NCBI GenBank assembly: GCA_036874045.1
Contig: CM072345.1
Span: forward strand, 6,411,501 to 6,475,500
From: Cymodocea nodosa
Lineage: Eukaryota > Streptophyta > Magnoliopsida > Alismatales > Cymodoceaceae
Direction of reading: 5' to 3'
DNA: 64,000 nucleotides
This document shows, in pieces, positions 572 to 63,487 of this stretch. The notes under the pieces are model-generated. The model was not told the origin of the DNA, did no database searches, and was given only the letters and a program-made list of their open reading frames with translations. Both the position numbers and the translations under genes were made by a program. The stretch's first letter is position 1. Each line of letters starts with the position of its first letter.

Positions 572-3500
572 TGTTAGGACTGCTGAGTATTTTATTTTGA
601 TGATGTGTGCTAAATGAAAATAATCATATTTGCTCAATTACTATTGCTTGTGAAAAGAAATTAAAATCATCAATTAATACAGAAAAAGCTTACTGATATA
701 AATACTTGTCTGTATTGGATCTGAAGTTAATAACTAGTCGTTTCATTGCATTAATTTCTCATGTAACTAAACGTTAAGTTAACGTGTGTTTTTTTATTGA
801 AAAGCATGATATGTTTTAAAGTTATATTTTCTGTATCATGTGCAGTGCAAGTTTAGACAACTCGTTAAGTTAGAGTTTTGTTCATATAGAGACCACATGA
901 CAACTCGTTAAGTTAGAGGCTTAAAGTTTAAAATAGGTCACGTGAGAACTCGTTAAGTTAGTGAATAAAAGAAGAGATAAACTCGTTAAGTTAGTGCTAT
1001 ACACGTGGTGAAATTATACGTTACAAATGTTATATTGTATCACGTGAGGTGCACATGTTTAACTCGTTAAGTTAACATAACTAAATGCGTTGAGTTGCTA
1101 TATTGAACACTAAGGCAATGCGTTAGGTTAGCGTTATAAACATAAGTTGTTATTTTTGCACGTGGTAAAAATCTTATTATAAAAAAAGCATTTGTTTATT
1201 GCTGAATCGGTAAGTTAAAGTTTTTCGAAGACTTACAGTCGTAACTATCCGAAAGGTAACTTAAGTCATGTTTTCAAGTCTTAACACGTGTCTCACTAGT
1301 TTTATGGTAAAAAGAGTTTTTCAGTGACTTACAACCGTAACTATCCGAAACTTAAACTATTTTCGATGAGTTATCGTTTAACCTTCCGAAAGAAAGGTTA
1401 AGTTGGTTCGTTGAGTTATCTACAGTACTAGTCACGTGAATTGGCACATGAGAAACTCGTTAAGTTAGAAACGTTAAGTTAATATCTACTTGTGCTACTC
1501 GTTTAGTTAACATTAAAGTAACGACTTCTTATTACACTAATGAAAGGTTTTTGGACGAGAAAGTTTATTTTGCAGGAAATTTTTCAGAGATTCAAGACTG
1601 ATGATTAAAGAAAATTCGAAATGTAAATGTGGGTCAGAATGCGTGTATTTCGATGAAGGAAAAAGAAAAGACGTGGAGAAGTGGAAAACTGGTAGTGATT
1701 AAATGTGGAGGATATGCATGAAATTAACATACAGTACAAAAGGTATAGAATTCTCATTGATCAAATTATCCTTGCACACAAAACGAAAATCTTTTCAAGG
1801 ATCAAACTATCCCTACACACCAAAAGAAAAATCTTTTTCAGGGATCAAAAATACTCTTCAGGGAAAATCTCTTAGGTGAAAGAAAATTCAGTGAAGCAGA
1901 AAAAGGTATTATTTATGTCACTAAAGATTTAAAGTATCAAAAGAAAGCAAATTTGGTGAAGCAAAGAAAGACAAGATATTCGTCACTGAAGAATTGCTGA
2001 AGGAGAAAAAGAAGAAGAAGAAAGATCTCAAACAGGGAGAAATGTTTTAAATTCCGTAAATTAGTTTTCTCTGTTTGTAGTTATGAAATTATTTAGATGA
2101 TACATGGTATCGAGATATAGTTGCATCTACAATTTCTAAGGAGAATTGAATTTTATATTGTAATTGAAACCTTGAATAAAAATGATTTTATGAAAACAAT
2201 GTCTCGACTTGTTTTTGAGTTTTAAAATTTCAATTATATTTCAGAAAATATTGAAAAACACAATTCACCCCCCCTCTTGTGTAGTCATACGATCCTACAA
2301 GGACCTAATGGCTTACCAGAGGGGGGGTGAATGGTAATATTTTTGTTTCTTAACATTGAATGACTAATAAATAGTTTAATTTAACAAGCATACAATGAAA
2401 GAAACTAATGCACACAAAGATTTTAGGTAGTTCACCACTAACGGCTAGTCCACCCCCAAGGGATACTTGGGCTTCACTAATCTTTCAAGACTTACAAACA
2501 CTTGCTTTAAGGTCAAAGCAAGAACCAACCAATTGAGTTGAGCTTTCTGGTCGTAGCTCCAACCAACCTATCTCTGAAGTTTTCAGTTGGTGCACTTTAG
2601 TAAACCACTTGCTTAAAGAAATCATAGTTTATTGCATGGAGAGCTTCTAAACTTGAGTTTGCATTTGCTGAAGCTTTGATCTTGAAGACTTTCTACTGTA
2701 TGCATTGAGATTGGTGTATAGATTCGTATATGCAAAAGCTATTTGACTCTGTTGTCTGCTGCTTGTATATATAACGTTATGTATAATGATCATATTCACT
2801 TCTAACGGATGTATTCTACTATACTTACTAAATTTGCAAAACCAAATATGGTAAGTTACCATTTAGGAAGGTATTTCAAGATAACCTTCCGATTTCCTTT
2901 GACTTTTGGAGGGTTAGCTATGTAATACTCCAAAGAATGCTCGTAACTTACCGATAATCCACTTAAGTCCTTTTGCCATGTGGGATTTAAGTCGTACACA
3001 TGAGGTGTCATAAGTTCGGATACTTGTAGTTGTAACTTACCGAAATGTTTTGACTATTGGATAGTTAACTATAGAAACTCTCCAATTTTCTTTAAGCTTT
3101 CAACTATTTTTTTATTTCTGCATGTGCATAATAGGATTATTTAAGTTTTGGATAGTTAAGTTTGTAACCTTTCGAAACTTCCTATTTTTCAGATAGTTAA
3201 CTTTCTAACTCTTCGAAAAATCTTTTAAGCTTCTATTCTAGATTTCTGCACGTGGGAAATTCACTAACTTAGGTTTCAGATAATTGGCTTTCCTAACTTT
3301 CCAAATTTCTTGAGCTTCCGGATAGTTAGCGCCTTAACTCTCTAATCATTTAGTCAACTACCTTTAAAACTCTCTGAAGACCTTTTATTTCCGGATAGTT
3401 ATTCTTCTAACTATCCGATGGTGTTTCGACTACTTTAAACTGATTCTTTGGATACTTAAGCCTGTAACTATCTGATTTTCCTGTAGCTCTATAGTAGCAA

Positions 3501-3620
3501 TTTCTGAACTACTTGTATCTGTTTATTTGCCTCCTGATTTTGCTGAGCTATCTTAACTATGAAATACAATTTGATTCCTCACATTGATTTTTGCATTCTC
3601 AAAATCTAGAGGTCCTTTCA
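572..3620 (-). mobile_element. copia-1 3' LTR (minus), split by copia-2 solo LTR
   Basis: On the minus strand the LTR begins TGAAAGGACC (3611-3620) and ends at 572 in ...GTCCTAACA. The insert at 581-2299 and the duplicated AGGAC interrupt it 9 bases from its end. The body carries many CGGATAGTTA/TAACTATCCG-type repeats (for example around 3150-3480) and a CACGTG at about 3249. It is the partner of the 5' LTR at 9579-10904. Confidence 0.88.
581..2299 (+). mobile_element. copia-2 solo LTR
   Basis: The LTR starts TGCTGAGTATTTT and ends CGATCCTACA. AGGAC lies on both sides (576-580 and 2300-2304), so it is a solo LTR from a full insertion followed by LTR-LTR recombination. It matches the LTR at 41339-42706 but is about 350 bp longer. 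One extra stretch is at about 1200-1400, which resembles gypsy-A LTR sequence. Another is at about 1730-1920. CTCGTTAAGTTAG repeats and CACGTG sites are dense between 840 and 1480. Confidence 0.9.
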
Positions 3621-3634
3621 ATCTCCCCCTTTTT
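3621..3634 (-). other. polypurine tract of minus copia-1
   Basis: The complement of this stretch reads AAAAAGGGGGAGAT, directly before the 3' LTR start at 3620. It is the same tract as at 38427-38440 in the plus-strand copy. It would prime plus-strand DNA synthesis. Confidence 0.8.
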
Positions 3635-3873
3635 GATAATGGCAAAAACCTTACAATATATTACATGTATTTCTCTCCCTATATAGATATGGTGTTGTTC
3701 TCTCCCCCTATTTTGCCACTTGTTAAAAGGGTGAATGTTATGTAACTAGCTTTGTGGAGCAATTATATCTAGATAGTTCATAGCTAGCTTGAAATTTAGC
3801 TAAGTTGCTGCAAGAGAAAATGTTAGTAGGACAAGCTCTTAGTTGTGAGCTTGAAGAGTAGAGAAGTAATGAA

Positions 3874-5382: not shown

Positions 5383-6060
5383 TTTCCAGAAAGTAGATGA
5401 AATTATCTTTCCAACGAGTATTTACATGTTTCATTTGGAGTTATGTAGAATTCTATGCGAATTTTTAAAGTTAGGCATATTTGATTTAATCAATATTATG
5501 AAGATTGGATAGTTAAGGGCATAACTATCCGACCTCATGACAAAATCGGATAGTTATAACCAAAACTATCTGATTTTGCCCCTGATCAGAGGGCTACACC
5601 CATAACTCTCTGATTGTACAGTAAAATCGGATAGTTAGGGTGAGCTATCCGATATTTATCGGATGGTTATTTTCTAGTGTAGAACAGTTTTATTTGAACT
5701 CTTATATTTGAAACTGCAGATACACTTTTGAATAAAAATTATTTTTGAAAATTTTCCATGAAACTACAAGAGTTTAACTTTCCAAAAAGGTATTATACGT
5801 TGTATTTGGAGTTATATACATTTCTGGATAATTTTTCTAAGATGATATGTTCTGCAGATTACGAATTTGAGTTGTTTGAGGTTTTACATAATTTTGGTAA
5901 TACTTCAGTTTTGGAAATTTTTATCTATGATTTTTTATAAAAACTAGAAGTAATTACCTTTCAGACAAGTATTTAATTGTGAATTTTGGAGCTGTATAAA
6001 TTTCTGTGTGATTTTTTTAATTTGAGATATTAAGCCTTTAGCCAAATTGGAAGGTTTCCC
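5383..6060 (+). repeat. leader repeats, about 190-bp unit
   Basis: Related stretches occur near 5395-5500, 5745-5935 and 5945-6050, and again after the LTR insert at 8575-8829. Each has a CTTTCC/ACAAGTATT-type start, a (T)TTGGAG(T)T(A)TATA...ATTTCT core, and a TTCAGTTTTGGAAATTTTT-type end. The copies are diverged and partly truncated. Inverted repeats such as GGATAGTTA (5507-5515) with TAACTATCC (5522-5530) fill the space between. The 60-codon ORF inside (5758-5940) is part of the repeat and is not supported as a gene. Confidence 0.6.
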
Positions 6061-6104
6061 TCTAACCTTCCAAAATTTTTTTGCCATTTTAGAAGGTTAG
6101 GTAG

Positions 6105-8393
6105 TGTTTAGAATGAAAAAGTGCATATTATTAACGGTTAAATGATGGTTAATTGCATAATATTTAGCTTATCATATGAGAATTAAGCTATTATGTTATA
6201 ATTACACTATTATATGCTTTAATTAAAGAATCTGCTTAATTTTGGGGAATTAATGTTAATTTAGTACATTTCTGAACTGTCGATAAGTTGCAGGCTGTGA
6301 AATTCTTAAGTATCCGAATTTTCTGATATTTCGGACAGTTATGTTTAACATACCGAACATATTTTAGATAGTTATGTTTAACAGACCGAACATGTCGGAT
6401 AGTTATGTTTAAATTGTCGAACAGTTATGTTTTGAAAGAATATTTTATTATTTCCTGAAGTACATGTGTCGATACCATAATGCATGACTTAAGTGAACTT
6501 TCGATGAGTTATCTATAACTATCCGAAATTGCAGCTGGGCATCGGATAGTTATATGTGTAACTCTCTGAAATCTCTTTTTATTTATAAAATAGCTGAGGA
6601 CACGTGTCATGTTCTAGGAAAGTGACTTAAGTGGATTTTTGGTGAGTTATCTCTAACTATCCGGAATGCATTTGAGCATCGGATAGTTAGCTCTGTAACT
6701 CTTCGAAATGTTTATTTTATGATTAAACTGCTGCTAACACATGTCGAGATCTGGTAGATTTATTTAAGTTATATATCGGTGAGTTATCTATAACTATCTG
6801 AAATGCATCTGAGCATCGGATAGTTAAGTTTATAACTATCCAAAATGCATCTGAGCATCGAATAGTTAAGTTTGTAAGTATCCAAAATGCATCTAGGCAT
6901 CAGATAGTTAAGTTTGTAAGTATCCGAAATGCACTTGAGCATCGGATAGTTAAATTTATGCATGTGTTTTATAGTTAAATCAATGAAGAAAGTCCGTTGA
7001 GTTATCTGTAACTCCACGGACTATTTATTTTCTAATATGCTACTGTAGCGGTTGTAGGAACAGACAGTTGGAAGAGAAAAACCACGTTTGCACGTAGCGC
7101 ATAGGGAGAAGAAATCATCGCCGTCGATACGAATGAAGGAAATCCAACCGACCATTCAAGTAGAAGTAGTTACTATTGAAGAAATATAAAAGAAAAGAAG
7201 AAAAAGAAGAAAAGTGTGTGTGATCGATGGACGACCAATGTGTACAGAGGAGGAGCACCGAGCTTTCTGTAGGCAGTATCAGCAATTCTCCAAAGTACCA
7301 CACCAACTATCGTTACCACCACCACAATCACCAATCATCGGAGGTCTGTGAGAATACTTTCTTGATGTTGGGTCGATTCCGAGCCAAACACAATGCCTGA
7401 CAACCACTGTGAGGAGTGATCGCGTTGCGGGAAGGGAAGCTATTTTCACCAAGCGCCAACTCATATTTCAAGAGATCGTAAAGCTTTTAGCCTTGGCTTC
7501 GGGTTGATGCCTATATGCTGAAGAGGAGATCATCTTGCAATTCTGGACTCGCGATTCTATAGGGAGAGGAGATAAGATTGTAAGTGGTTTAATTTTTAGT
7601 GGTGTAATCGAGTTGCAAGTAGTGACAAAAGTATTTACTATCGAGTGAGATTACTTTACATTTCACCTTTCGCCCATTTCCATGTTCATATTAAAACAAA
7701 AATACCAAAAACAATTTATCTATGTTTGTATGTTGTATTTGAGTGTTGTATTGTTTGTGTTGTATCGTGATTAATGTTATCTTTGTCAGTGTTGTGATTG
7801 TTTTATGTTGTTTTAGTTTTACAGTTTACTAAAATTGGTTCGTTCAAAAGACTTAAAGATTTTAATGGTTACTGTTTGAATTATCTGAATGTTAGTATTG
7901 CTTAATGATAAATTCAATGTTTACTAATATTAAAAAGCTGAATTGATGTTATTTACAATCTGTGGAATTGCCCAATGGTTGGCCGAATTCCATTGTAAAT
8001 AGTAGTATTAAAAAGAAAAGACAGGCTCGTGGAGTTAACTTAAGTCCACGAGGTTAGTCTGTTGAGTTAGCCATAACTCAATGAACTTTGTCCGTTGAGT
8101 TAACTGTAATTCAATGGAGAGCTTATTGAATATATAAATTTGATTGTTAACAAACGAACAGTTCTCAAGTTCTTCAGCAATTCCCTATAGGATCGACCTG
8201 TACTTGCACACTGATACAATAAACACTGTGCACTTGCAGTTAAAGTACAAATTAGAATTAATATCTAAATTGTATTAAAGGTTGTTTGTTTACTTCTAAA
8301 AGAAAAGAATAGGCATAAAGATAAATTAACTAAGTAAAAAACAAAAGTAACAAATCCAAGTTTTTCTGGTGTAGTGCTGGGAAAACACAAACA
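6105..8393 (+). mobile_element. gypsy-A solo LTR (2.29 kb)
   Basis: It starts TGTTTAGAATGAAAAAG and ends GGGAAAACACAAACA. GGTAG flanks both sides (6100-6104 and 8394-8398), so it is a complete solo LTR. It is 2289 bp long, close to the copies at 18111-20222, 28349-32207 and 57333-59535. It contains hairpin motifs (6400-7010), a U5 module at 8191-8239, and U3 G-box/ACTTAAGT blocks. Small ORFs inside are not conserved as proteins. Confidence 0.92.
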
Positions 8394-9576: not shown

Positions 9577-9578
9577 AT

Positions 9579-10904
9579 TGTTAAGACCTAATGGCTTACC
9601 AGAGGGGGGGTGAATGGTAATATTTTTGTTTCTTAACACTGAATGACTAATAAACAATTTAATTTAACAAGCACACAATGAAAGAAACTAATGCACATAG
9701 AGATTTTAGGTGGTTTACCCCTAATAGCTAGTCCACCCCCAAAGGATACTTGGGCTTCACTAATCTTTCAAGACTTACAAACACTTGCTTTAAGATCAAA
9801 GCAAGAACCAACCAATTGAGTTGAGCTTTCTGGTCATAGCTCCAACTAACCTATCTTTGAAGTTTTCAGTTGGTGCACTTTAGTAAATCACTTGCCTAAA
9901 GAAATCAGAGTTTATTGTGCGGAGAGCTTCTAAACTTGAGTTTGCATTTGCTAAAGATTTGATCTTGAAGACTTTTTACTATATGCGTTGAGCTTGGTGT
10001 ATAGAATTGTATATGCAAAAGCTATTTGACTCTGTTGTTTGTTGCTTGTATATATAACGTTATGTATAACGATCATATTCACTTCCAACGGATGTATTCT
10101 ATTGTACTTACTAAATTTGCAGAACCAAATATGGTAAGTTACCATTTAGGAAGGTATTTCAAGATAACCTTCCGATTTCCTTTGACTTTTGGAGGGTTAG
10201 TTATGTAATACTCCAAAGAATGCTCATAACTTACCGATAATCCACTTAAGTCCTTTTGCCACATGGGATTTTAAGTCGTACACGTAAAGTGTCATAAGTT
10301 TGGATATTTGTGGCTGTAATTTATCGAAATGTTTTGACTATCGGATAGTTAGTTATAGTAACTCTCCGATTTTCTTTAAGCTTTCGACTGTTTTCTTATT
10401 TCTGCACGTGCATAATATGATGATTTAAGTTTCGAATAGTTAAGTCTATAACCTTTGGAAACTTCCTATTTTTAAGATAGTTAACTTTCTAAGTCTCCGA
10501 AAAATCTTTTAAGCTTCTGTTTTGGATTTCTGCACATGGGAAATTCACTGACTTAGGTTTCGGATAGTTGGCTTTCCTAACTTTCCAAATTTCTTGAGCT
10601 TTCGAATAGTTAGCACATTAACTCTCCAATCATTTAGTCAGCTACCTTTAAAACTCTCCGAAGACCTTTTATTTCCAAATAGTTATTCTTCAAACTATTT
10701 GACAGTGTTTCGGTTGCTTTAAATTGATTCTTTAGATACTTAAGCCCATAACTGTCTAATTTTACTATAGCTCTATAGCAGTAATTTCTGAACTACTTGT
10801 ATCTGTTTATCTACCTCCTAATTTTGCTGAGCTATCTTAATTATGAAATATAATTTGATTCCTGACATTGATTTTTGCATTATCAAAATCTAGAGGTCCT
10901 TTTA
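9579..10904 (-). mobile_element. copia-1 5' LTR (minus)
   Basis: On the minus strand it starts with a mutated TAAAAGGACC (10895-10904) and ends ...GGTCTTAACA at 9579. It is 1326 bp long, matching its partner at 572-3620. ACAAC follows at 10905. Hairpin motifs include CGGATAGTTA at 10342-10351 and a CACGTG at 10405-10410. Confidence 0.9.
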
Positions 10905-13846: not shown

Positions 13847-15083
13847 TGTAAGATGAGGGGGGTGAATTGTGTCTTTAGTAATTAAAAATTACCAACAGAT
13901 AAAACAAGAGCACAAAAACACTTGTAAATAAAATTCTAATATTTATAAACTTTAAAGAAAGAATTTACAATCTCTTTTTAGCTCAATTCCCTTCTTGTTG
14001 ATTTTGATACAATAAAGTCTAATATACAATTCAAAGAGAAAATAAAATCCTTACTCTAAGCTAATTTCGAATTGTATAAAACCTGATCTTTATGAACGTA
14101 GCTCCTTTTCTTTCTTTTTGCTCAACTTCTGTATCTCTTCTTCTCTAGTTGTCGAATTTCCAGACTTCTTGTGTTGCACCTCCTTTTTTGAAATTGTTTG
14201 GAATTTTGAACTTCTTCTAATGTTAGAGAATTTTTCTATATTTGAATACTTAGATTTGGTGTTTGAGATTTGAATTGGAATGTGATTGAATATTCAAACT
14301 TGGTATTTGAGATTGGGATGATCGTAATGCAGCTTGTACCATCTATTTATAGTCATCGAACTATGACTTCATGTTCAGCATGTTCATCCATTTAATCCAT
14401 AATCCCATATACTAATTTCAATTTCAAATTATCCACGATTTCCATTGTCTTTTTGAATTTCCACTATGTCCACTCTTTATTTTGAATGTCCACTTCTTAT
14501 TTTGAATTTCTACTATCTCCACTATCATTTTGAATTTCCACGATTTCATATCGTAGATCCACCAAAACTTTATCTTCTTAGAGATTTATAGAATATATTC
14601 TAAGTCACCGCTTTAGTTGAACACTTATCCATTAAGTCTTATAAAACTCAAACACTTATTTGTAACTCTTCGAGTTCTTGCACCTACAAAATACGTGACT
14701 AAACAAGAAAACTTATCTATTCATTAGTCATTTTATAAAACTTGAACAGTTATCCATCCATGCATATAGAAACTCAAACAGTTATCTAACTCTTCGATTT
14801 TTCATTACCGAACGCACATGGAAAACACGTGAAAACTTAAAACAAAAAACACATGTGCAGATAACTTAACTATACGAGTTTTTAATATAACTCTTCAACT
14901 AAATCGAAACGTTAACTATCCGAAAGTTTAACTATCCAAAGCTTAACTATCCAAAAACTTTAACTAAAACTTTTCGATAACTTGTCAACATTTAATTATG
15001 TGACTATTATACTTAGAAAAATTTATTTAGACATATTTATAAACTTTAATAAAGTATTCATCATCAAAACAAAATTCCTAACA
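13847..15083 (-). mobile_element. copia-3 solo LTR (first copy)
   Basis: On the minus strand it starts TGTTAGGAATTTTGTTTTGATG and runs 1237 bp. ATTTT flanks both sides (13842-13846 and 15084-15088). Its 3' terminus lacks about 20 bases (GATCCT..region) present in the copies at 15149 and 46640. Hairpin motifs TAACTATCCG and CACGTG lie at 14800-14960. Confidence 0.88.
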
Positions 15084-15148: not shown

Positions 15149-16459
15149 TGTAGGATTGCAGTATCACAAGTGAGGGGGTGAATTGTGTCTTTAGCAATTA
15201 AAAATTACTAGCAGATAAAACAAGAGCACAAAAACACTCGTAAATAAAATTATAATCTTTATAGACTTTAAAGAAAGAATTTACAATCTCTTTTTAGCTC
15301 AATTCCCTTCTTATTGGTTCTGATACAAAAAGTCTGATATACAATTCAAAGAGAAAATAAAATCCTTATTCTAAGCTAATTTCAAATTGTATAAAACTTG
15401 ATCTTTATGCACGTATCTCATTTTCCTTCTTTTTGCTCAGCTTCTATATCTCTTCTTCTCTAGTTATCAAATTTCCAAACTTCTTGCGTTGCAGCTTCTT
15501 TTCTAAAATTGCTTGAAATTCCGAACTTCTCTTGATGTTGGAGAACTTTTTTGGATTTGAATACTCAGATTTGGTGTTTGAGATTTGGATTGGAATGTGA
15601 TTGAATATTTAGACTTGGTATTTGAGATTGGGATGTGATTGAATATTCAGGCTTGATATTTGGGATTGGGATGATCGTAATGTAGCTCGTACCCTCTATT
15701 TATAATAGTAGAACTATCACTTCATGTTCAGCATGTTCATCTACTTAATCCATAATCTATAATCTCACGTACTACTTTCAAATTCAATTTATCTATGATT
15801 TCCATTGTCTTTTTGAATTTCCACTATATCCACTCTTTATTTTGAATGTCCACTTCTTATTTTGAATTTCCACTATCTCCATTATCATTTTGAATTTCCA
15901 CGATTTCATATCGTAGATTCATCGAAACTTTTTCTTCTTGGAGATTTGTAGAATATCTTCTAAGTCATTACTTTAGTTGAATACTTATCCTTTAAGTCTT
16001 GTAAAAACTTGAACACTTATCTGTAATTCTTTGAGTTCTTGCACTTGCAAAACACGTGATTGAACAAAAAAACTTATCTATTCGTTAGTCATTTTATAAA
16101 ACTTGAATAGTTATTTAACTCTTCGATTTTTCATTTCCGAACGCACATAGAAAACACGTGAAAATTTATAACATTAAAAGCGCATGTGCAGATAGCTTAA
16201 CTATACAAGTTTTTAACATAACTCTTCAATTAAATCAAAACGTTAACTATCCAAAAGTTTAACTATCCAAAGCTTTAACTATCCGAAAACTTTAACTATC
16301 TGAAAATCTTAATTATTTGAAAGTTAACTATTTGAAATTTAAATGAAACTTTTCGATAATTTGTCAACATTTAATTACATGACTATTATACTTAGAAAAT
16401 ATTATTTAGACTTATTTATACACTTTAATAAAATATTCATCATCAAAACAAAATTCCTA
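15149..16459 (-). mobile_element. copia-3 solo LTR (second copy)
   Basis: It starts TGTAGGATTGCAG on the plus strand and ends ...AAATTCCTA. ACTAT is duplicated at 15144-15148 and 16460-16464, splitting one pol reading frame. The terminal ACA seen in other copies is missing, probably through a small deletion at the right junction. Several TAACTATCCGAAA-type repeats are at 16235-16345. Confidence 0.85.
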
Positions 16460-16464
16460 ACTAT

Positions 16465-16799
16465 TTAGTTATAGGTTTAACACTTAAGGATTGAAATAGA
16501 CTGGATAAGAAATTGTTCTTTTCAAGAGTGAAATATTACTTTTGGGAAGACCCATACTTATTTAAGAAATGTCCTAATTTAGTTATAAGAATGTGTGTTT
16601 CAGAAATTGAATATCAGAGCATATTATCTTTCTGCCATAACCAAGTATGTGGAGGACATTTTGGTTTAGGGAAAACTACTACCAAAATTCTACAATGTGG
16701 ATTCTATTGGCCAATATTATTTAAAGATGCTCACAAATATTGCTTAAGTTGTTTGAGATGTCAACAAATAGGAAGGATATCAAAGAGGAATATGATGCC
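16465..16799 (+). pseudogene. Athila-like integrase zinc-finger region
   Basis: The frame gives VKYYFWEDPYLFKKCPN, then HNQVCGGHFG and CLSCLRCQ: the H-x5-H and C-x2-C pairs of the retroviral-type integrase zinc-binding domain. It ends ...GRISKRNMMP. One in-frame TGA (16479-16481) is present before the domain. The frame stops at the duplicated ATGCC and continues at 20223 in the integrase core. In an intact element this domain helps integrase bind LTR ends. Confidence 0.88.
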
Positions 16800-17600
16800 T
16801 GTTTAGAATGAAAAAGTGCATATTATTAACGGTTAAATGATGGTTAATTGCATAATATTTAGCTTATCATATAAGAATTAAGCCATTATGTTATAATTGC
16901 ATTGTTATATGTTTTAATTGAAGATGCTATATAAGATGCTATAGAATTTATTATTTATGCAAATCTAGATATAGTATCTTATGTTTTTTTGAATTTCATG
17001 AGTTTAACAGTTTCACGATTTTAAAATGAAATCAGAATGCTTAAAAAAAAAAAAAAATCAGTAAATTATCTGAAGTCCTAAAAGAGCTGAGATGTGAATT
17101 CTAGATTAAATAAAACACATATGATTAAAGATACATCTAATTTGACTGATTGAACTTGTAGAATGATTTATGTGTAGATCTTATTAAACTACAGAAAAAG
17201 TATGAGCTTATCGTTATGGATTCATATTTTCAGTAACTGATAGAAGTAGGACTATACGAGATTGCCATTTTACTGCATCTGTATTAATGAAATACATACA
17301 TATATAGTATGTGATTAATGTTTTGTTTTGTGTTTATAGTTTTGATTGAAAAAAATAATAATAATAATAAAATATAAAAAAAAAAAAAAATTGAAAGTTT
17401 ATTGACTTGTTTGATCACGAGCCTTTTGTACTTGAGTAGATAGGTATGTAAGGATTGTTGACCTGAAAAAGGACTCTTAAAATCTGGCAACCTAAGATCC
17501 TGATCAGATCTGGGATTGTTGACTGAAAGCTCGTTACATGGGTACATTAGAAAGCTCTTGTATGATTCAAGCTTGTCAAATTAACTTTTAAAGTACGAAA

Positions 17601-17605
<5 letters not shown>

Positions 17606-17630
<25 letters not shown>
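17606..17630. repeat. (AT)n microsatellite
   Basis: Perfect AT dinucleotide run of about 12 units inside the 3' non-coding part of the deleted gypsy-A element; absent from the related stretch at 25830. Confidence 0.85.
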
Positions 17631-17637
<7 letters not shown>

Positions 17638-18098
17638 CTGTTATGAAAAGATACAAGTATTTTATGAAATACAGATATCTTATGAATCGAGTATATTTTC
17701 TGTTATTTAGAATTGCTGAAATATGAATTTGGAATTGACTTTTGAAGTTGTTTAATGGAGATACAATTCTTTATTCTACTTGTCTTAATCATATTGAATT
17801 AGATTGTATTTTGATTTGTATGTTGTTGAAATTTCTTCTAGAAATCTTATTGGAAAATTCAGGATGACAGATGATGAAAAGAAGAACAAACGATAATATA
17901 ATTAACACCTATATAATGATGATATACTTGGTATGTAATTTACATATATTCTAAGTATATTTGCAGGTTGATTACTAAAACATACAAAATATATTTTTAT
18001 GCTAAATAGAAGAAAAACAAAAGGGGAAGAATTAATTCTAGCACTTTTAAAGACCAATTAATTAGATCTTAGTTTGCTAAGGGACTAGCAAAATTTAG

Positions 18099-18110
18099 GT
18101 ATGGGGGAAG
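18099..18110 (+). other. gypsy-A polypurine tract
   Basis: GTATGGGGGAAG directly before the LTR start TGTTTAGAATG. The same tract precedes the LTR at 26407. It primes plus-strand DNA synthesis. Confidence 0.85.
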
Positions 18111-20222
18111 TGTTTAGAATGAAAAAGTGCATATTATTAACGGTTAAATGATGGTTAATTACATAATATTTAGCTTATCATATAAGAATTAAGCCATTAT
18201 GTTATAATTGCACTTTATATGTTTTAATTGAAGAATGTGCTTAATTTGGGGGAATTAATGTTAATTTAGTACATTTATGAACTATCGGTAAGTTGCAGAC
18301 TATGAAATTCTTAAGTATCCAAATTTTCTGATAAATTCAGATAGTTATGTTTAACATACCGAACAAATTCGGATAGTTATGTTTAACAGACCGAATATGT
18401 ATCGGATAGTTATGTTTAAATTGCCGAACAGTTATGTTTTGAGAGAATATTTTATTATTTCCTGAAGTACACGTGTCGAAACCATAATGAATAACTTAAG
18501 TGAACTTTCGGTGAGTTATCTATAACTATCCGAAATTGTAGCTGGGCATCGGATAGTTATCCCTGTAACTCTCCAAAAACTCTTTTTATTTATAAAATAG
18601 CTGAGGACATGTGTCATGTTCTGGGAAATTGACTTAAGTGGATTTTCGGTGAGTTAGCTGTAACTATCCGAAATGCATCTAAGCATCGGATAGTTAGACC
18701 TGTAACTCTCCGAAATGTTATTTTATGATTAAATTGCTATTGACACGTGTCAAGATCTAGTAGATTTACTTAAGTTATATATCGGTGAGTTATTTGTAAC
18801 TATCCAAAATGCATCTGAGCATCGGATAGTTAAATTTATGCACGTGTTTTATAGTTAAATCAATGAAGAAAGTTCGTTGAGTTATCTGTAACTCCATGGA
18901 CTATATATTTTCTAATATGCCACTGTAGCAGTTGTAGGAATAGACAGTTGGAAGAGAAAAACCACGTTTGCACGTATCGCGCAGGGAAAGAAATCATCAC
19001 CGTTAATACGAATGAAGGAAATCCAACTGACCATTCAAGCAGAAGCAGTTACTACTGAAGAAATATAAAAGAAAAGAAGAAAAAAGAAGAAGTGTGTGAT
19101 TGATAGATGGACAGTGTGTGTAGAGGAGGATCGACGTCGCAATTCTTTGAAGTACCACACCAACCATCATCATCACCATCATCACCACCATAATCATCAA
19201 CCATCGGAGGTCTGTGAGGATACTTGCCTGATGTCGGGTTGATTCCAAGCCAAACACAATGCTTAACAACCACTGTGAGGAGTGATCGCGTCGCAGGAAG
19301 GGAATCCATTTTCACTAAGCATCGACTCATATTTCAGGAGATCGTATAGCTTTTAGCCTTGACTTCGGGTTGATGCCTGTATGCTGAAGAGGAGATTATC
19401 TTGCAATTCTGGACTCACGATTTTATAGGGAGAGGAGATAGGATTGTAAGTGATTTAATTTTCAGTGGTGTAATCGCGTTGCAAGTAGTGTCAGAAGTAT
19501 TTACTATCAAGTGAGATTACTTTACATTTCACCTATCGCCCATTTCCATGTTCATATTAAAACAAAAATACCAAAAACAATTTATCTATGTTTGTATGTT
19601 GTATCGTGATTAATGTTATCTATGTCAGTGTTGTGATTGTTTTATGTTTATTTTAGTTTTACAATTTACTGAAATTGGTTCGTTCAAAAGACTTAAAGAT
19701 TTTAATGGGTACTATTTGAATTATCTGAATGTTAGTATTGCTCAATGATAAATCCAATGTTAACTAACATTAAAGAGCTTAATTGATGTTATTTGCAATA
19801 TGTGGAATCGCCCAATGGTTGGCCGAATTCCTCTGTAAATAGTAGTATTAAAAAGAAAAGGAAGGCTCGTGGAGTTAACTTAAGTCCACTAGGTTAGTCC
19901 GTTGAGTTATCCATAACTTAGTTTGTTGAATTAGCTGTAATTCAACGGAGAGCTTATTGAGTATATAAATTTGATTTTTAACAAACGAATAGTTCTCAAG
20001 TTCGTCAGCAATTCCTTGTGGGATCGACCTATACTTGCACATTGATACAATAGACACTATGCACTTGCAGTTAAAGTATAAATTGGAATTAATATCTAAA
20101 TTGTATTAAAGGTTGTTTGTTTACTTCTAAAAGAGAGAATAGGCATAAAGATAAATTAACTAAGTAAAAACAGAAGTAACAAATCCAAGTTTTTCTAGTG
20201 TAGTGCTGGGAAAACCCAAACA
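18111..20222 (+). mobile_element. gypsy-A 3' LTR
   Basis: It is 2112 bp, starts TGTTTAGAATG and ends AAAACCCAAACA. CACGTG or near copies occur at about 18470 and 18840, CGGATAGTTA/TAACTATCCG repeats at 18340-18840, and the U5 module at 20021-20070. ORFs at 19003-19330 on the minus strand are chance frames, since they shift between LTR copies. Confidence 0.9.
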
Positions 20223-38440: not shown

Positions 38441-39581
38441 TGAAAGGACCTCTAGATTTTGATAATGCAAAAATCAATGTGAGGAATCAAATTGTATTTC
38501 TCAGGCTTAACAATTCAGCAAGAGAGCAGAAGTTGATACAGATAGTTCAAAGTGTGCTGCAAGTGATAAAAAGGATTTCAAAAAGTTACCAGGCTTAACT
38601 ATCCGGAAGAGATATATTTTCGGTGAGTTACTAGTCTAAGTATCCGAAAGGTAGTATAAAGTAGTAGCAACACTATTAGACAATTAGAAGATTAAGTATC
38701 CGAAAGTAGAAGGCTTTCGAAGAGTTAGAAAGATGGATGTATGAAGAATCGAAAAGTTACCGTAGCTAACTAACCGAAACTTAAGTCATTGAATTTCTCA
38801 TGTGTAGAAATCCAAATAGAAGCTTAAAAGAAGAATCGGAAAGTTACTAGAGCTAACTATCTGAAAATTGAAGAGTTTCGGTGAGTTACAAGTATAACCA
38901 TCCGGAACTTAAGTTAGTCTATTATGCACGTAATTAATTAAATAAAGCAGTCGAAAACTTAACGAAGGATTTCGAAGGGTTACTATAGCTAACTATCCGA
39001 TAGTTAAATAATTTTTTGGTAAGTTACAATGGCAAGTATCTGATTGAATGATAGCTCATATGTACGATCTAAAATCCTACATGGTAGAAAGACTTAAGTG
39101 ACTTTTTGGTAAGTTACAAGTATTTTTCGGAGAGTTACATGGCTAAGCCTCCGAAAAACCTAGGAAATCAAAATGGTATCTTGAAATACCTCCCTGAACG
39201 GTAGCTTACCATATTTGGGTTTGAAATCTTATCAAGTACAACAGAATACATCCGTTGGAAGAAAAATATAATCGTTACACGTGTTAGTATATATGCAAGA
39301 AATAGACAACAAAATTAGATAGCTTTTTACTCATACAAATATTTACACCAAGCTCAATAGAAGAAAAGTCTTTGAGATCAAATCATCTTCAGCATATACA
39401 GACTCAATTTTAGAAGCTCATCACGCACTCAACTCCGATACATTCAAACAAGTGTTTTACTGAAGTACACAAATCAAAAACTTCAGTGAAAGATTGGTTG
39501 GAGCTACGACCTGAAAGCTCAATTAGGTTGGTTGGTTCTTGCTTTGACCTTAAAGCAAGTGATTGTAAGTTTGTGAAAGCT
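38441..39581 (+). mobile_element. copia-1 3' LTR, truncated
   Basis: It starts TGAAAGGACC and matches the 5' LTR through TTTGTGAAAGCT. There it joins copia-2 DNA; the 5' LTR continues for another ~190 bp (AGTGAAGCCC...). The last part and the right target duplication are gone. Hairpin motifs match those of the 5' LTR, with many C/T differences. Confidence 0.9.
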
Positions 39582-41338: not shown

Positions 41339-42706
41339 TGTTGAGCATTTTGTTTTGATGATGTGTGTTGAATGAAAATAATCATATTTGCTCAATTACT
41401 ATTGCTTGTGAAAAGAAATTAAAATCATCAATTAATACAAAAAAAGTTTACTGATATAAATACTTGTCTGTATTGGATTTGAAATTATACTAAGTTAGTA
41501 ACTAGTCATTTCATTGCATTAATTTTTCATTTAACTAAACGTTAAGTTAACGTGTGTTTTTATTGAAAAGCATGATATGTTTTAAAGTTATATTTTTTGT
41601 ATCATGAACAGTGTACGTTTAGACAACTCGTTAAGTTAGAGTTTTGTTCGTATAGAGGTCACGTGAGAACTCGTTAAGTTAGATGCTTAAAGGTTAAAAT
41701 AGGTCACGTGAGAACTCGTTGAGTTAGTGAGTAAAAAAAGAGACGAACTCGTTAAGTTAGTGTTGTACACGTGGTGAAATTATAAGTTACGAATGTTATA
41801 TTATATCACGTGAAGTGCACATGTTTAACTCATTAAGTTAACATAACTAAACACGTTGAGTTGCTATATTGAACACTAAGGCAACGCATTAGGTTAGCGT
41901 TAGAAAACTTAAGTTGTTATTTTTGCACGTGATAAAATTCTTATTATAAAAACATTTGTTTATTACTACTTCGTTGAGTTATCTGTAACACAACAGAGAT
42001 GGTTCGTTGAGTTAGCGTAGCACCACAGACTTAGTTCGTTGAGTTAGCTACAGTACTTGTCACGTGAGTTGGCATATAAGGAACTCGTTAAGTTAGAAAC
42101 GTTAAATTATATATATACTTGTGTTACTCGTTTAGTTAACATTAAAGTAACGACTTCTTATTATACTTGATGAAAAATTTTGGAAGAGAAAGTTTATTTT
42201 GTAGGAAATTTTTCAGAAATCTAGGATTAATGATTAAAGAAAATTCGAAATGTAAACGTAGGTCAGAACGTGTGTATTTCGATGAAGGAAAAAGAAAAGA
42301 TATGAAGAAGTGGAAAACTGATAGTGATTAAATGTGGAGGATATGCATGAAATGAAGCAAATTCGGTGAAGCATAAAAAGACAAGATATTCGTCACTGAA
42401 GAATTGCTGAAGAAGAAAGAAAAGAAAAAGAAAGATCTCAAACAGGGAGAAATATTTTAAATTCCGCAAATTAGTTTTATCTGTTTGTAGTTATGAAATT
42501 TTATAAGTGAAATATGGTATCGATATCTAATTGCATTTACAATTTCTGAGGAGAATTGAATTGTATATTGTAATTGAAACCTTGAATAAAAATGATTTTA
42601 TGAAAACAATGTCTTGACTTGTTTTTGAGTTTTAAAGTTTCAATTATATTCGAAAATATTGAAAAACACAATTCAGCCCCCTCTTGTGTACCCATACGAT
42701 CCTACA
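41339..42706 (+). mobile_element. copia-2 3' LTR
   Basis: It is 1368 bp, starts TGTTGAGCATTTTG and ends CGATCCTACA. It matches the solo LTR at 581-2299. Between 41980 and 42060 it has three CGTTGAGTTA-type repeats, where the solo LTR has TAACTATCCG-type repeats and a gypsy-like block. CTCGTTAAGTTAG and CACGTG sites are frequent at 41600-41850. Confidence 0.9.
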
Positions 42707-46440: not shown

Positions 46441-46639
46441 ATTAGATTACTTATCTTTGGTATTAAATTTAATATACTACAAGTGTTGTGTAGTAAAACT
46501 TTTTGTTTTGGTGTTATGTGATTATTTTATGCTTGAATGTACATATATATTTGATGACATAGGTGATGTGCTTGAATAACATATTTCATTTGTTACGATA
46601 CTATCTTAATGAAATGTAAGATATATATATTAGTGCTAT
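46441..46639. other. AT-rich flank of the accessory ORF copy
   Basis: Probably the 3' untranslated part of the same element. Nothing specific is seen. Confidence 0.3.
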
Positions 46640-47916
46640 TGTAGGATCATTGTATCACAAGAAGGGGGGATGAATTGTGTCTTTAGTAATTAAAATTACC
46701 AACGTATAAAACAAAAGCACAAAACACTCATAAATAAAATTCTATTCTTTATAAACTTTAAAGAAAGAATTTACAATATCTTTTCAGCTCAATTCCTTTC
46801 TTGACAGTTTTGACATAGTAATGTCCGATATACAATTCAAATAGAAAATAAAGTCCTTATTCAAAACTAATTTCAAATTGTATAAAACCTGATCTTTATG
46901 CACGTAGCTCATTTCCTTCTTTTTGTTTAGTTTCTGTATCTCTTCTTCTCCAGTTGTCGAATTTCTAGACTTCTTGCATTTGCAGCTCCTTTTTTGAAAT
47001 TACTTGGAATTTCAAACTTCTTCTGATATTGGAGAATTTTTCTAGATATGAATATTCAGACTTGATTTTTCAGTTTGGGATTCTAATTGAATATTCAGAC
47101 TTGATTTTTAAGATTGGGATCCTCATTATAATGTAGCTCGTACTCTCTATTAGTAGTCGAATTCTGACTTCACGTTCAGCATGTTCATCCACTTAATCCA
47201 TAATCCACGTACTAATTTCAAATTCAAATTATCCACGATTTCCACTATCTTTTTGAATTTCCATTATGTCCACTATCATTTTGAAATTTCCACTTTCTCC
47301 ACTATTATTTTGAATTTCCACGATTTCCACTCGTAGATTCACTGAAACTTTATCTTCTTCGAGATTTGTAGAATATTTTCTAAGTCTTCGTTTTAGTCGA
47401 ACACTTATCATTTAAGTTTTGTAAAAATTCAAACACTTATCTATAACTCTTCAAGTTTTTGCACCTGTAAAACATGTGACTGAACAAGGAAAACTTATCT
47501 GTTCGTTAGTCATTTTATAAAACTCGAATAGTTATTTATCCATGCATATAAAAACTTAAACAGTTATCTAACTCTTCGATTTTCATTACCGAACGTACAT
47601 GTAAAACACGTGACAACTTAAAACATTAAAAACACATGTGCAGGTAACTTAACTATACAAGTTTTTAATATAACTCTTCGACTAAATCGAAATGTTAACT
47701 ATCCGAAAGTTTAACTATCCAAAATTCTAACTATCTGAAAATTTTAATTATCTGCAAACTTTAAGTAATTCGAAAGTTAACTATCCGAAATTTTAAATGA
47801 AACTTTCCGATAACTTGTCAACATTTAATTACATGACTATTATACCTAGAAAATATTATTTAGACTTATTTATAAACTTTAATAAATCATTTATCATCAA
47901 AACAAAATTCCTAACA
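46640..47916 (-). mobile_element. copia-3 solo LTR (third copy)
   Basis: It is 1277 bp from TGTAGGATCATTG to CCTAACA on the plus strand. The flanks GCTAT (46635-46639) and ACTAT (47917-47921) match in four of five bases. It carries TAACTATCCG at 47696-47705 and further copies to 47800. Short minus ORFs are not conserved. Confidence 0.85.
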
Positions 47917-48806
47917 ACTATGAATCTAGGGGTGTACTTTGTATCAATTAAATTGGAAGAGTCACAAAAGTTATTTCTATAATTTCATATATGTTTAAGA
48001 AAAACCTATCTTTATCTTTTAATAATGACAAAATTGTAAAGAGAAATAAGAGTTATAAAACTATTATTATTATTTTAAATTCTTATTATCAAGTTTTGTT
48101 ATCATTAAAATGAAAAAGATTGTTAGGAAAATCATTCTTAATTATTTTTTTATGACAAAAAATTTAATGATAAATATGAAATTATTTACATATATTAAGT
48201 TGATTATAAGGAATGAATCTTATAATCAATGAAAGGTAAACAAGTATCAAGCAAGGTGGATAATCAAAGAAAATCATCAAGAAAAATCAATAAATGAAGA
48301 TTAAGCGAAGGACTCTAGATAATATACTTTATGTTATCTATAACTCATTGTAATATCATTTATGTAATACAACTTATTAAGTCCTTTGGCTTAGCAAGTT
48401 TTTTTTAGAAAAGGTATGTTATATCGGAAACGATAATTATCATAACATTAAAGAGAATGAATCACGCTTAAATAAAAAAATGTGAAAATTTTCTTTTTAT
48501 AATATTATAATGTTGGTATCTATTAAAAAAGGTATAATAGCAAAAAATAGAGTATAATCAAAGTTTTACAAATAAAATTTACAACAAAAAAGTATAAAAT
48601 TCATTACAATCTAATTCCAATCAGAATTAGATGAGATGTAAATCACATATTCTATTTTATTTACAAAAATTCTGCTACAACGACAAGGAGTTAATTTTGG
48701 ACCTAATATTTATTTTCTTTTTTTCTTTTCTTTTTTCTTTCTTCTTTTCTTCTTCCCCTCTCCTTCCTCTTCTTTTTCATCCCAACACTTCTGATGAGCT
48801 TGTTAA
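47917..48806. other. AT-rich DNA with a possible copia LTR start
   Basis: At about 48106-48135 AAAATGAAAAAGAT precedes TGTTAGGAAAATCATTCTT, laid out like a polypurine tract and copia LTR start. No end or second copy was found, apart from the similar short stretch at 13594-13634. A pyrimidine-rich run lies at 48710-48780. The 74-codon ORF over it is low complexity. Confidence 0.35.
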
Positions 48807-57332: not shown

Positions 57333-59535
57333 TGTTTGGTTACCCAGCATGACACCAGAAAACTAGTTTGGATCTCTAGCAACACACTAGAAAAACTTGG
57401 ATTTGTTAACTTCTGTTTTTACTTAGTTAATTTATCTTTATGCCTATTCCTTTTTTAGAAGTAAACAAACAACCTTTCACACAAATTAGATATTAATTCC
57501 AATTTGTATTTTAACTGCAAGTACACAGTGTCTATTGCATTAGTGTGCAAATACAGGTTGATCCCATAGAGAATTGTTTAAGAATTGAGAACTGTTCCAT
57601 TTGTTAACAATCAAATTAATATCTTCAATAAGCCCTCTATTGAGTTACAGTTAATTCAACAGACAAAGTTCGTTGAGTTATGGTTAACTCAACGGACTAA
57701 CCTCGTGGACTTAAGTTAACTCCATGAGACTGCCTTTTTTTTTTAATACTACTATTTACAAAGGAATTCAGCCAACCATTGGGCGATTCCACAGATCGTA
57801 AATAACATCAATTAAGCTCTTTAATATTAGAAAACATTGGATTTATCATTAAGCATACTAACATTTAGATAATTCAAATACTAACCATTAAAATCTTTAA
57901 GTCTTTTGAACGAATCAATTTCAGTAAACTGTAAAACTAAAACAAACATAAAACAATCACAACATTGATAAAGATAACATTAATCACGATATAACACAAA
58001 CAATACAACACTCAAATACAAAATACAAACACAAATAAGTTGTTTTTGGTATTTTTGTTTTAATATGAACATGAAAATGGGCGAAAGGTGAAATGTAAAG
58101 TAATCTCAATCGATAGTAAATACTTCTATCACTACATGCGATGCGATTACACCACTGAAAATTAAACCACTTACAATTCTGTCTCCTCTCCTTATAGAAT
58201 CGCGAGTCCAGAATTGCAAGATGATCTCCTCTTCAGCATACAGGCATCAACCCGAGGCCAAGGCTAGAAGCTTTACGATCTCCTGAGATATGAGTCGGCA
58301 CTTGGTGAAAATGGCTTCCCTTCCCGCGACGCGATCACTCCTCACAGTGGTTGTTAGGCATTGTGTTTGGCTCGGAATCAACCCGACATCAGGAAAGTAT
58401 CCTCACAGACCTCCGATGGTTAGTGATTATGGTGGTGGTAATGATGGTTGGTGTGGTATTTCAAAGAATTGCCGATACTATCTGTAGAAAGCTTGGTGCT
58501 CCTCCTCTGTACACACTGGCCATACCCATCGATCACACACACTTTACTTCTTTTTCTTCTTTTCTTTTATATTTCTTCAATGGTAACTACTTATATTCGA
58601 ATGGTTAGTTGAATTTCCTTCATTCATATCAACGACAATGCTTTCTTCTCCCTGTGCGATAGGTGTAATCGTGGTTTTTCTTCCAACTGTCTTGTTTCTG
58701 CAACCGCTACAATGGCACATTAGAAAATAAATAGTCTGTGGAGTTACAGATAACTCAACGGACTTGCTTCGTTGATTTAATTATAAAACACGTGCATAAA
58801 TTTAACTATCCGATGCTCAGGTACATTTCAGATACTTACAACTTAACTATCTGATGCCTAGATGTATTTCGAATAGTTATAGATAACTCATCGATATATA
58901 ACTTAAGTAAATCTACTAGATCTCGACACGTGTCAATAGTAGTTTAATAATAAAAGAAACATTTTGGAGAGTTACAGGTCTAACTATCCGATACTCAGAT
59001 GCATTTCAGATAGTTAGAGATAACTCACCGAAAATCCACTTAAGTCACTTTCCCAGAACATGACACGTGTCCTTCAGCTATTTTATAAATAAAAGGAGAT
59101 TTTGGAGAGTTACACATATAACTAATTGATGCCCAACTGCAATTTCAGATAGTTATAGATAACTCACCGAAAGTTCACTTAAGTCATGCGTTATGGTTTC
59201 GACATGTGTACTTCAGGAAATAATAAAATATTCTTTTAAAACATAACTGTTCAGTAGTTTAAGCATAACTATCCGATACATGTTTAGTATGTTAAACATA
59301 ACTGTCCGAAATATCAGAAAATTCGGATACTTAAGAATTTCACAGCTTGTAACTTACCGACAGTTCAGAAATGTACTAAATTAATATTAATTCCCCCAAA
59401 TTAAGCAGATTCTTTAATTAAAGCTTATAATAGTGCAATTATAACATAATGGCTTAATTCTCATATGATAAGCTAAATATTATGTAATTAACCATCATTT
59501 AACCGTTAATAATATGCACTTTTTCATTCTAAACA
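57333..59535 (-). mobile_element. gypsy-A solo LTR, minus strand
   Basis: It is 2203 bp from TGTTTGGTTACCCAGC to CATTCTAAACA on the plus strand, with ATATT on both sides. The U5 module is at 57508-57570 and the hairpin/G-box zone at 58740-59300. Plus-strand ORFs at 58290-58608 are chance frames also seen, shifted, in other copies. Confidence 0.92.
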
Positions 59536-62252: not shown

Positions 62253-63487
62253 AAAATAAAAATCTCTATCAATAGTAAAAACTTCCGTCATTACATGTGA
62301 CATGATTACACTATTGAAAACTTAATCACTTACAATCTTACCTCCTCTCCCTATAGAATCACGAATCAAGAATTGTAAGATGATCTCCTCTTTAGCATAC
62401 TGGCATCAACCCAAAACCAAGGCTAGAAGCTTTACAATCTCTTGAGATATGAGTCGGTGATTGGCAAAAATAGCTTCCCTTCCTGTGACGCGATCACTCC
62501 TCATAGTGATTGTCAGTCACAATGTTTGGCTCAGAATCGACATGACATCTGGAAAGTATCTTCACAGACCTTTGATGATTGGTGATTTTGGTGGTGGTGT
62601 AGAGCTTTCGGGAACTTCCGATGCTTCTTGCAATTAGCGCGGTTCTCCACCTACACACACACACCTCATCTTTCTCCTCTTCTTTTATATTTCTTTCAGT
62701 AATAACTGCTTATACTTAAATGATCGATTGGATTTCTTTCATTTATGTCAACGATGGTGATTTCCTCTTCATTCCCTGAGTGAATTCTTGCGTGATACGT
62801 GCAATCGTGGTTTTCCTTTGAATTTCCTGTTTCTGCAACTACTATAGTGGCATATTAGAAAATAAATGGTCCATGGAGTTAGTGTAACTCAATAGACTTA
62901 CTTCATTGATTTAACTATAAAACACATGCAATAAAGAAATAACAAGTTCAAATGTTTCGGATAGTTATAACTATAAGTATTCGAAACTTATATGCATTTC
63001 AGATACTTAGCACCTAACCTTCCGAAAGATAACTTACGTTAAGTTTCTAGAATGCGACACGTGTCAAACAGTTTTATGATAAATAGATATTATGGATACT
63101 TGCAAACCTAACTATCCGATGCTCAAACACATTTTGGATAGTAATAGATAACTTTCCAAAAATACATTTAAGTTGTGCATTAAAGTTTCAATAGGTGTGC
63201 TCTAGGAAATAATAAAATATTCTTTAAGCATTTAAAACATAACTATCCGGTACATGCAATATAACTCTCTAAAATAATAGAAAATTTAAATACTTAATAA
63301 TTTCAAAGCTTGTAACTTACTAACAGTTCAGAAGTATACTTAATCAACGCTAATTTCTTGAAATTATGCAAATTCTTTCATTAAAGTATATAACAGTGCA
63401 ATTGTAACATAATGATGTAATTTTCATATGATAAGATAAATATTATGTGATTAACCGTTAATATTATTCACTTTTTCATTTTGAACA
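62253..63487 (-). mobile_element. gypsy-B LTR, minus strand, U5 side missing
   Basis: The plus-strand right end is CATTTTGAACA, complement of the LTR start TGTTCAAAATGAAAAAG. The middle (62340-62860) matches 43560-44110. The left side is cut at 62252, where pol begins. CACGTG-related and TAACTATCCG-type motifs at 62940-63250. Confidence 0.8.

Follow-up and report, generated by a model that had tools for sequence, protein, structure and literature searches.

A short half-site fills the long terminal repeats (LTRs) of both copia-type and gypsy-type retrotransposons in one stretch of Cymodocea nodosa contig CM072345.1, and two blocks of sequence appear to be common to LTRs of the two kinds that otherwise differ. 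The stretch, a single window of 64,000 bases with 31% GC, is the sample for all results given here. It is crowded with nested LTR retrotransposons, and the named relatives of the encoded proteins are plants. For example, the 120 listed of 1958 protein matches to a copia integrase piece are 40–55% identical, and the 120 listed of 2424 matches to a gypsy integrase are 47–66% identical, the named ones in both cases coming from many plants. An Rfam search gave no match. Copia and gypsy LTRs are usually regarded as evolving separately.

The preferred reading, with a probability of roughly 0.55, is that the half-site arrays are enhancers of the unique 3' (U3) region that serve a common host factor and have been partly traded between the superfamilies. 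The motif would be a repeated protein-binding half-site that, with CACGTG boxes and ACTTAAGT, forms enhancer arrays in U3, upstream of the promoter. Both superfamilies would rely on the same host factor or factors, perhaps of R2R3-MYB type plus a G-box binder. The arrays could have arisen by two routes. In one, ready-made cassettes (blocks A and B) would be exchanged between a gypsy-type family, F1, and a copia-type family, F3, with template switching or conversion where boxes match as the probable mechanism. In the other, local duplication and parallel accumulation would have filled families F2 and F4, whose flanks are hardly alignable with the others. Enhancer action is suggested because the core of the half-site is conserved, the arrays are CpG-rich and they lie upstream in the LTR; it is from sequence that we infer this action, factor binding and the exchange mechanism.

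The Shared Half-Site

The strict form of the motif, CGNNNAGTTA, has 146 matches compared with 3.53 expected, and the maximum among 100 shuffles is 10. The matches are concentrated in the LTR intervals of four families, F1–F4 (140 in 28,141 bp), and 6 fall in the remaining 35,859 bp. Multiple copies inflate the motif count; about four LTR families, rather than 146 sites, are independent units. The paired form AGTTA-N0-12-TAACT is found 69 times (3.52 expected), and the everted order TAACT-N-AGTTA is likewise in excess (16 against 3.47). Taken one sequence at a time, 16 of 22 exceed all of 200 dinucleotide shuffles; no excess over those shuffles is seen in F1e, F1h, F1i, F4b, F4d and internal region E6. 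Two other words are co-enriched, CACGTG (38, of which 34 are in LTRs) and ACTTAAGT (30, of which 29 are in LTRs). The 8-mers with the greatest excess include ACTATCCG, CTATCCGA, GATAGTTA, AACTATCC and ACACGTGT; ACTTAAGT ranks lower.

These counts bear out the original prediction that one non-random motif family occurs in LTRs of both copia and gypsy type, denser than in shuffled sequence and with frequent CACGTG and ACTTAAGT beside it. The "several gypsy families" it named are in the main copies or subfamilies of the single LTR family F1. The positions that it cited read as described; several of the pairs fit a relaxed motif only. In the pair 24486/24499, TG and CA replace CG, the pairs 6817/6833 and 5507/5522 have one arm each without CG, and the core at 8478/8493 is GGTTA, not AGTTA.

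When 169 AGTTA cores from eight LTRs are aligned, the preferred context is T-CG-(G/T)-(A/T)-N-AGTTA. The CG slot holds CG in 75 cores, TG in 24, CA in 20 and other letters in 50. Replacement by TG or CA is as expected if methylated CG has decayed, and such decay is a possible clock for the arrays. The shared unit is best read as a half-site, about TTCG(G/T)(A/T)NAGTTA, that is likely a DNA site. No match to a dyad arm combined with ACTTAAGT was found in viral contigs, a set from which the genome of the window itself may be missing.

LTR Families and Superfamily Placement

The LTR intervals are element-aware and were set by hand from self-comparison, and LTR ends were also read. A first homology clustering was replaced because nested insertions made families merge. 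Four LTR families, F1–F4, were distinguished in the window.

F1 is placed with Ty3/gypsy because the LTR F1e follows a gypsy-type integrase and a region matching an element with RT_RNaseH_2. Integrase_H2C2 (16495–16803) and rve (20268–21008) lie upstream of the polypurine tract (PPT) and LTR F1e on the same strand, presumably as one contiguous element, and the region upstream of F1e has a counterpart beside a second element carrying RT_RNaseH_2. F1 may belong to the Athila lineage, as its integrase and PPT features would suggest. The longer F1 copies are about 2.1–2.3 kb and start with TGTTTAGAATG; the PPT GGGGGAAG precedes the LTR at two places (18111 and 26407), and three insertions have 5-bp target duplications (GGTAG, ATGCC and CTTAA).

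LTRs of F2 flank copia pol genes (RVT_2, rve, gag_pre-integrs, SH3_retrovirus and Pol_BBD at 35040–37826 by Pfam), and the primer site is ATTGGTATCAGAGC. According to a study of Sireviruses (PMC2829016), their features include a characteristic LTR/primer binding site (PBS) junction, several PPT copies and a poly-C integrase signal lying about 21 bp from the end of the LTR. F2 has the junction CA/ATTGG TATCAGAGC (AACAATTGGTATCAGAGC at 33449–33466) and, by reading, several PPT copies (GGGGGAGAAA, GGGGGAGTAAA and AGGGGAG in 38111–38330). The poly-C signal CACCCCCCCTCT is found in F2 (in F2c close to the 3' end) and F3, and F4 has a poly-C tract, such a tail near the LTR end being common to the three families. 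F2 is copia by Pfam and, to judge from the junction, poly-C and multiple-PPT hallmarks, probably a Sirevirus. F3 and F4 are placed with Sireviruses by the tail only, plus PPT-like sequence for F3b.

No copia pol was recognised next to F3b. Three adjoining open reading frame pieces in one frame precede that LTR (39569–40819), with no Pfam family above the cut-off; they could be an env-like or a captured gene.

Arrangement and Conservation of the Arrays

In every family the main arrays are found in the upstream LTR part. They are upstream of TATAAAAGAA in F1a–d and F1f, of TATAAAAAGA in F1e, of TATATATACA in F2a and F2c, and of TATATATGCA in F2d. A TATA candidate is found 3' of the array at LTR positions 799–1081 in F1a–f and 773–989 in F2a, F2c and F2d; it is less clear in F4, and the stretch downstream of the F3a array showed none. 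For example, the main array of F1a spans LTR positions 228–905, with TATAAAAGAA at 1081 and a minor site group at 1924–2223, and the relaxed-pattern half-sites of the F2c LTR piece span 91–687, upstream of TATATATACA at 773.

Spacing and orientation vary with the family. Among 40 F1 dyads with spacers of 0–12 bp, the spacer is 4 bp in 21 and 6 bp in 9; in the 12 F2 dyads it is 6 bp in 4 and 7 bp in 6. Four of five F4 dyads have a 2-bp spacer, and F3 has 4 dyads in all. With the relaxed pattern, sites run mainly in one direction in F3a (12/18), F3b (12/16), F4a (8/10), F4b (8/9) and F4c (9/11). The usual F1 unit consists of CACGTG, 18 bp, ACTTAAGT, about 7 bp and a dyad, and in F1a–e CAYGTG lies exactly 24 bp upstream (start to start) of 11 of 17 ACTTAAGT words. 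The same words are present in F2 and F3a in a different order and with different gaps; ACTTAAGT is 12 bp from CATGTG in two F2c units and 18 bp from CACGTG in F3a.

Intact conservation of AGTTA was compared with that of composition-matched 5-mers in 14 overlapping directed comparisons. The core is kept more often in every family: 52/81 compared with 253/732 in F1, 26/54 with 179/533 in F2, 34/37 with 231/335 in F3, and 30/34 with 283/477 in F4. The observed/expected CpG ratio in 12 array regions is 0.76–1.67 compared with 0.57 for the window; five other LTR stretches give 0.36–0.87, with some overlap.

Blocks Common to F1 and F3

Block A (about 140–160 bp, about 79% identity) has the same orientation in F1 and F3, and block B (about 165 bp, about 72% identity) is inverted between them. 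BLAST E values for block A are 7e-26 (F1j–F3a, 143 bp) and 6.5e-21 (F1d–F3a, 109 bp), and for block B 2.8e-18 (F1e–F3a, 166 bp, inverted). The best value between F1 and F2 is 3e-6, in pieces of 25–73 bp only. F3b lacks block B, with an interval of about 50 bp compared with 186 bp; since F3a has the block, such cassettes are apparently gained or lost inside one family.

The boundaries of block A can be described. F1a, F1b and F1c, which lack the block, read ...GCAYGTGTTTTATA... at the place where F1d has GCATGTGTTGAA, block A and then GCACGTATTTTATAG; block A of F1d therefore has a G-box-like word on either side, whereas the other copies have a single such word there. In F3a the block likewise ends on CACGTG words (1002 and 1159). 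Recombination or template switching at a G-box-like word would be a fitting reading. In the downstream 200-bp flank 21 columns align, with identity within the shuffled range; in the upstream flank 113 columns align at 0.73, a value for which no null was computed.

In a first test, motifs were held fixed and the other bases shuffled 150 times, for 19 pairs and orientations picked after BLAST. All seven F1–F3 comparisons in this post-BLAST set exceed 150 of 150 shuffles (z 8.2–24.5). For F1–F2, z is 2.5–5.1 and three of four exceed all shuffles; neither F2–F3 comparison does so (z 2.8 and 3.8), and none of five F1–F4 and F2–F4 comparisons shows an excess. The excess of F3a–F4c (z 8.1) is probably due to their common tail. 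It is very improbable that all the LTRs descend from one ancestral LTR, an explanation that was rejected. Blocks A and B and the poly-C tail of F2, F3 and F4 would fit such descent, but the missing excesses in these shuffles, the restriction of F1–F2 similarity to short pieces, the differences between F1 and F2 in LTR ends, PPT and internal genes, and the failure of the downstream flank of block A to align argue against it.

Two stricter tests gave mixed results. In the aligned-block test, identity at non-motif positions was compared with 400 shuffles. Four of the F1–F3 values are reached by none, among them F1j–F3a (59/84) and block B in F1e–F3a (69/95); F1j–F3b is reached by 17. The F1–F2 values are reached by 63, 13 and 66 shuffles (not significant or weak) and F2c–F3a by 74. 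The whole-LTR masking test scored only non-motif bases, motif bases counting zero, over 65 pairs with 60 shuffles each, and seems too harsh for short blocks. F1–F3 excesses in it are F1e–F3a (z 7.1), F1f–F3b (4.8) and F1j–F3a (4.0), and both F3–F4c pairs exceed as well. The stricter tests thus make block B firmer, block A depending mainly on F1j–F3a and the alignment itself. The idea of a spreading cis-module, raised in the original prediction, therefore holds for blocks A and B against motif-preserving shuffles and is left mixed by the stricter tests.

Several results weigh against the reading of traded enhancers. Only 9 of 65 pairs exceed the 60 masking shuffles, including 3 of 14 F1–F3 pairs; F1d–F3a shows no excess there (z -0.2), and F1f–F2d, F1f with both F4 copies, and F2a–F4a do. 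In the aligned-block test the non-motif identity of block A in F1d–F3a (39/59) is reached by 17 of 400 shuffles, so the similarity of block A is partly motif. The minor second site group of F1 lies near the 3' end, past the TATA candidate. The regular dyad arrangement is missing in F3 and F4, and a single dimer model does not fit all families. Conservation of the core could come from conversion among repeats rather than selection, the copies being few and related.

A neutral minisatellite, spread by slippage, conversion and template switching, is a doubtful alternative, in which the motif has no function and its sharing reflects recombination alone. F1 does contain tandem units of about 137 bp, the block similarity suggests that recombination occurs, and block B is present in F3a and not in F3b. 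Such spread would not account readily for a core that in every one of the four families is kept more often than composition-matched words, for a motif carried by F2 and F4 despite little alignable flank, or for a main array in the upstream LTR part of every family. A wider form of the preferred reading is offered tentatively: LTR retrotransposons across superfamilies in one plant genome might be a recombining community that trades U3 enhancer cassettes, with CACGTG boxes and the AGTTA half-site as template-switch microhomology and with copia and gypsy elements converging on one host trans-factor.

Arm Covariation and Folding

It had been proposed that the two arms of a dyad vary together, as for a selected hairpin. 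In 63 dyads with spacers of 2–8 bp, compared with within-family permutation, this is true of the first variable base (agreement 0.79 compared with 0.52 permuted; reached by 0 of 2000 permutations) and not of the second and third, where there is no excess (0.52 compared with 0.52, and 0.33 with 0.40). The sum over the three bases is 1.65 compared with 1.44 (p 0.0285, or 0.0175 without duplicates). First-base agreement may be due to the copying of whole dyads from two ancestral classes, CGG and CGT. Of the 21 F1 dyads with a 4-bp spacer, 12 are asymmetric, one arm having TG and the other AT. As evidence for a hairpin the covariation is mostly unsupported: it affects one of three positions, sites in F3 and F4 are mainly head-to-tail, and F3 has no folding excess.

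Sense-strand folding gives z of -5.7 to -7.9 in three F1 arrays and -3.0 and -3.9 in two F2 arrays, compared with -0.72 to 1.84 in four downstream controls. It is weak in F4 (z -1.49 and -2.39) and without excess in F3 (z -0.88 and 0.20; antisense -2.80 and -0.80). Folding is strong in F1 and moderate in F2, but it is weak in F4 and F3 lacks it; the families therefore do not have a hairpin in common. Transcribed dyads that fold and serve as small-RNA sources or RNA signals, as proposed for maize Sirevirus palindrome clusters, are an unlikely explanation of the arrays. The F1 and F2 folding values speak for it, but F3 and F4 do not share them, two of three variable bases show no arm covariation beyond within-family chance, and the median energy of the 63 dyads is just -4.6 kcal/mol. 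U3 is, moreover, usually upstream of the transcript start. A small-RNA excess at Sirevirus palindromes, reported second-hand in PMC10760457, would favour RNA hairpins.

Features of the Window

The copies and blocks are listed in Table 1. F1b consists of a truncated 5' LTR (16800–16934), the PPT GGGGGAAG and a 3' LTR (18111–20222), and sits between two integrase pieces of a gypsy element. F1e also has related degenerate sites, a partial block A and a block-B-like module. F2d is preceded by copia pol (RVT_2) and GGGGGAG tracts. At 28278–33452 the insertions are nested, an insert at about 28880–30467 splitting F1d, which itself splits the copia LTR F2c.

Table 1. Half-site-bearing LTRs, shared blocks and leader sites, in window positions
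Feature	Position	Strand	Description
Leader sites	5507..5637		three half-sites and one dyad in 4800–6104, outside the LTR families, 656 bp past TGGCGCCG at 4851
F1a	6105..8393	+	solo LTR, gypsy-type family F1; target duplication GGTAG; 17 strict half-sites
F1b	16800..20222	+	short F1 element; target duplication ATGCC; 15 half-sites in 3' LTR
F1c	57378..59535	-	LTR; 12 half-sites
F1d	28349..32207	-	LTR pieces 28349–28879 and 30468–32207; target duplication CTTAA; 15 half-sites; block A
F1e	26407..28279	+	divergent F1 LTR immediately 3' of PPT GGGGGAAG; 1 strict half-site, no excess
F1f	62255..63487	-	divergent F1 LTR; 3 half-sites; block-B-like module
F1j	1..571	+	F1 LTR fragment; 2 half-sites
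F2a	2302..3686	-	copia LTR, start approximate (within about 70 bp); 6 half-sites
F2b	9585..10904	-	copia LTR; 5 half-sites
F2c	32208..33452	+	copia 5' LTR, main piece, ends CA/ATTGG TATCAGAGC (PBS); 11 half-sites
F2d	38300..39581	+	copia 3' LTR, start approximate (within about 80 bp); 9 half-sites
F3a	572..2300	+	LTR TGTTAGGA...CACCCCCCCTCT...CCTACA; 16 half-sites, mostly direct orientation
F3b	41340..42706	+	LTR 3' of ATGGGGAGATTGTTG; 11 half-sites; without block B
F4a	13857..15083	-	LTR; 4 strict half-sites, mostly direct
F4b	15174..16466	-	LTR; 2 strict half-sites, mostly direct; no excess
F4c	46636..47917	-	LTR; 5 half-sites; 3' tail 83% like F3 over 48 bp
Block A in copia LTR F3a	1005..1164	+	aligned columns: 110/138 = F1d, 118/149 = F1j
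Block A in gypsy-type LTR F1d	31323..31462	-	flanked by CATGTG and degraded CACGTA
Block A in gypsy-type LTR F1j	8..161	+	aligned to F3a
Block B in F3a	1242..1404	-	half-site, ACTTAAGT, 18 bp, CACGTG; inverted relative to F1e/F1f, 72–73% over 166 bp

Three other places may be mentioned. The word TGGCGCCGTTGC at 4851 is a possible primer site of tRNA-Asp type that would belong to another gypsy element, the leader with three half-sites following it. Upstream of the F1e LTR, the internal region 24466–24712 consists of tandem units of about 65 bp with TAACTC/GAGTTA half-sites; the units are about 74–93% like pieces near the 3' end of F1 LTRs and are reminiscent of the extra repeated-motif boxes near the Sirevirus env gene. 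A tandem repeat of about 307 bp (55647–56258, 76% identity, start TGTTAGGA) lies beside and partly inside an F4-related stretch.

Comparison with Known Systems

The sequence suggests that such elements can copy regulatory switches from one another. If regulatory blocks do move between copia and gypsy elements, a useful new enhancer could spread from one element family to another, and it would be easy to explain why unrelated retrotransposons burst under the same stress. A defined site of 10–12 bp offers a handle on the host factor, and how exchange happens can be studied on two blocks whose boundaries can be described.

A literature search by motif letters returned, among the matches listed, only apparently unrelated papers, and no description of shared or chimeric copia–gypsy U3 modules was found in the literature searched, which is no proof of absence. 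According to PMC10760457, the cis-regions of elements often consist of repeat arrays, and the repeats are sometimes palindromic. The VANC21 arrays of VANDAL DNA transposons, as described in PMC5735166, resemble the present ones in pattern only, as dense short non-coding motifs that multiply by tandem repeats. They differ in belonging to DNA transposons, in having a motif largely of one family and one orientation, and in being bound by the element's own protein. By analogy, the motif could be a docking site at which an element-encoded or host factor removes methylation, as VANC does for VANDAL. The dense non-coding arrays, their tandem evolution and the CpG in the motif resemble VANC21 targets, but few copies of the VANC21 motif occur outside its own family, and the motif here is common to both superfamilies, which makes anti-silencing improbable. 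Triticeae recombinant LTR elements, for which fusion of two parents during reverse transcription has been proposed, are a parallel for template switching; in the abstract of PMC1950507 they are large complex elements and not products of copia–gypsy U3 cassette exchange.

The closest known system is the repeated motif (RM) box of Sirevirus (Ty1/copia) LTRs described by Bousios et al. in 2010 (PMC2829016), so that dyad boxes in Sirevirus LTRs are known already. RM boxes are similar to the window's motif in being short dyads with CGG–CCG arms, in at least 8 copies, mostly in the upstream LTR half, and to its arrays in lying upstream of the TATA box and in forming CpG islands. The Osr9 RM box TTTTCGGACWTRTCCGAAAA is similar to F1 and F2 dyads. 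Many F1 and F2 dyads have the palindromic CGG–CCG core in the sense used for Sireviruses (at least 8 copies); F3 dyads are mostly of CGT type and its sites direct, and those of F4 are mostly direct. In contrast to the RM boxes described there, the arms in the window have an AGTTA core, F3 sites are mainly of CGT type and direct, and F1 has blocks in common with F3. In the literature searched, no description was found of this box in gypsy-type LTRs combined with homologous copia–gypsy cassettes, as seen in this single 64-kb window. RM boxes were called Sirevirus-specific relative to classic copia elements (PMC2829016); the motif described here also fills gypsy-type LTRs.

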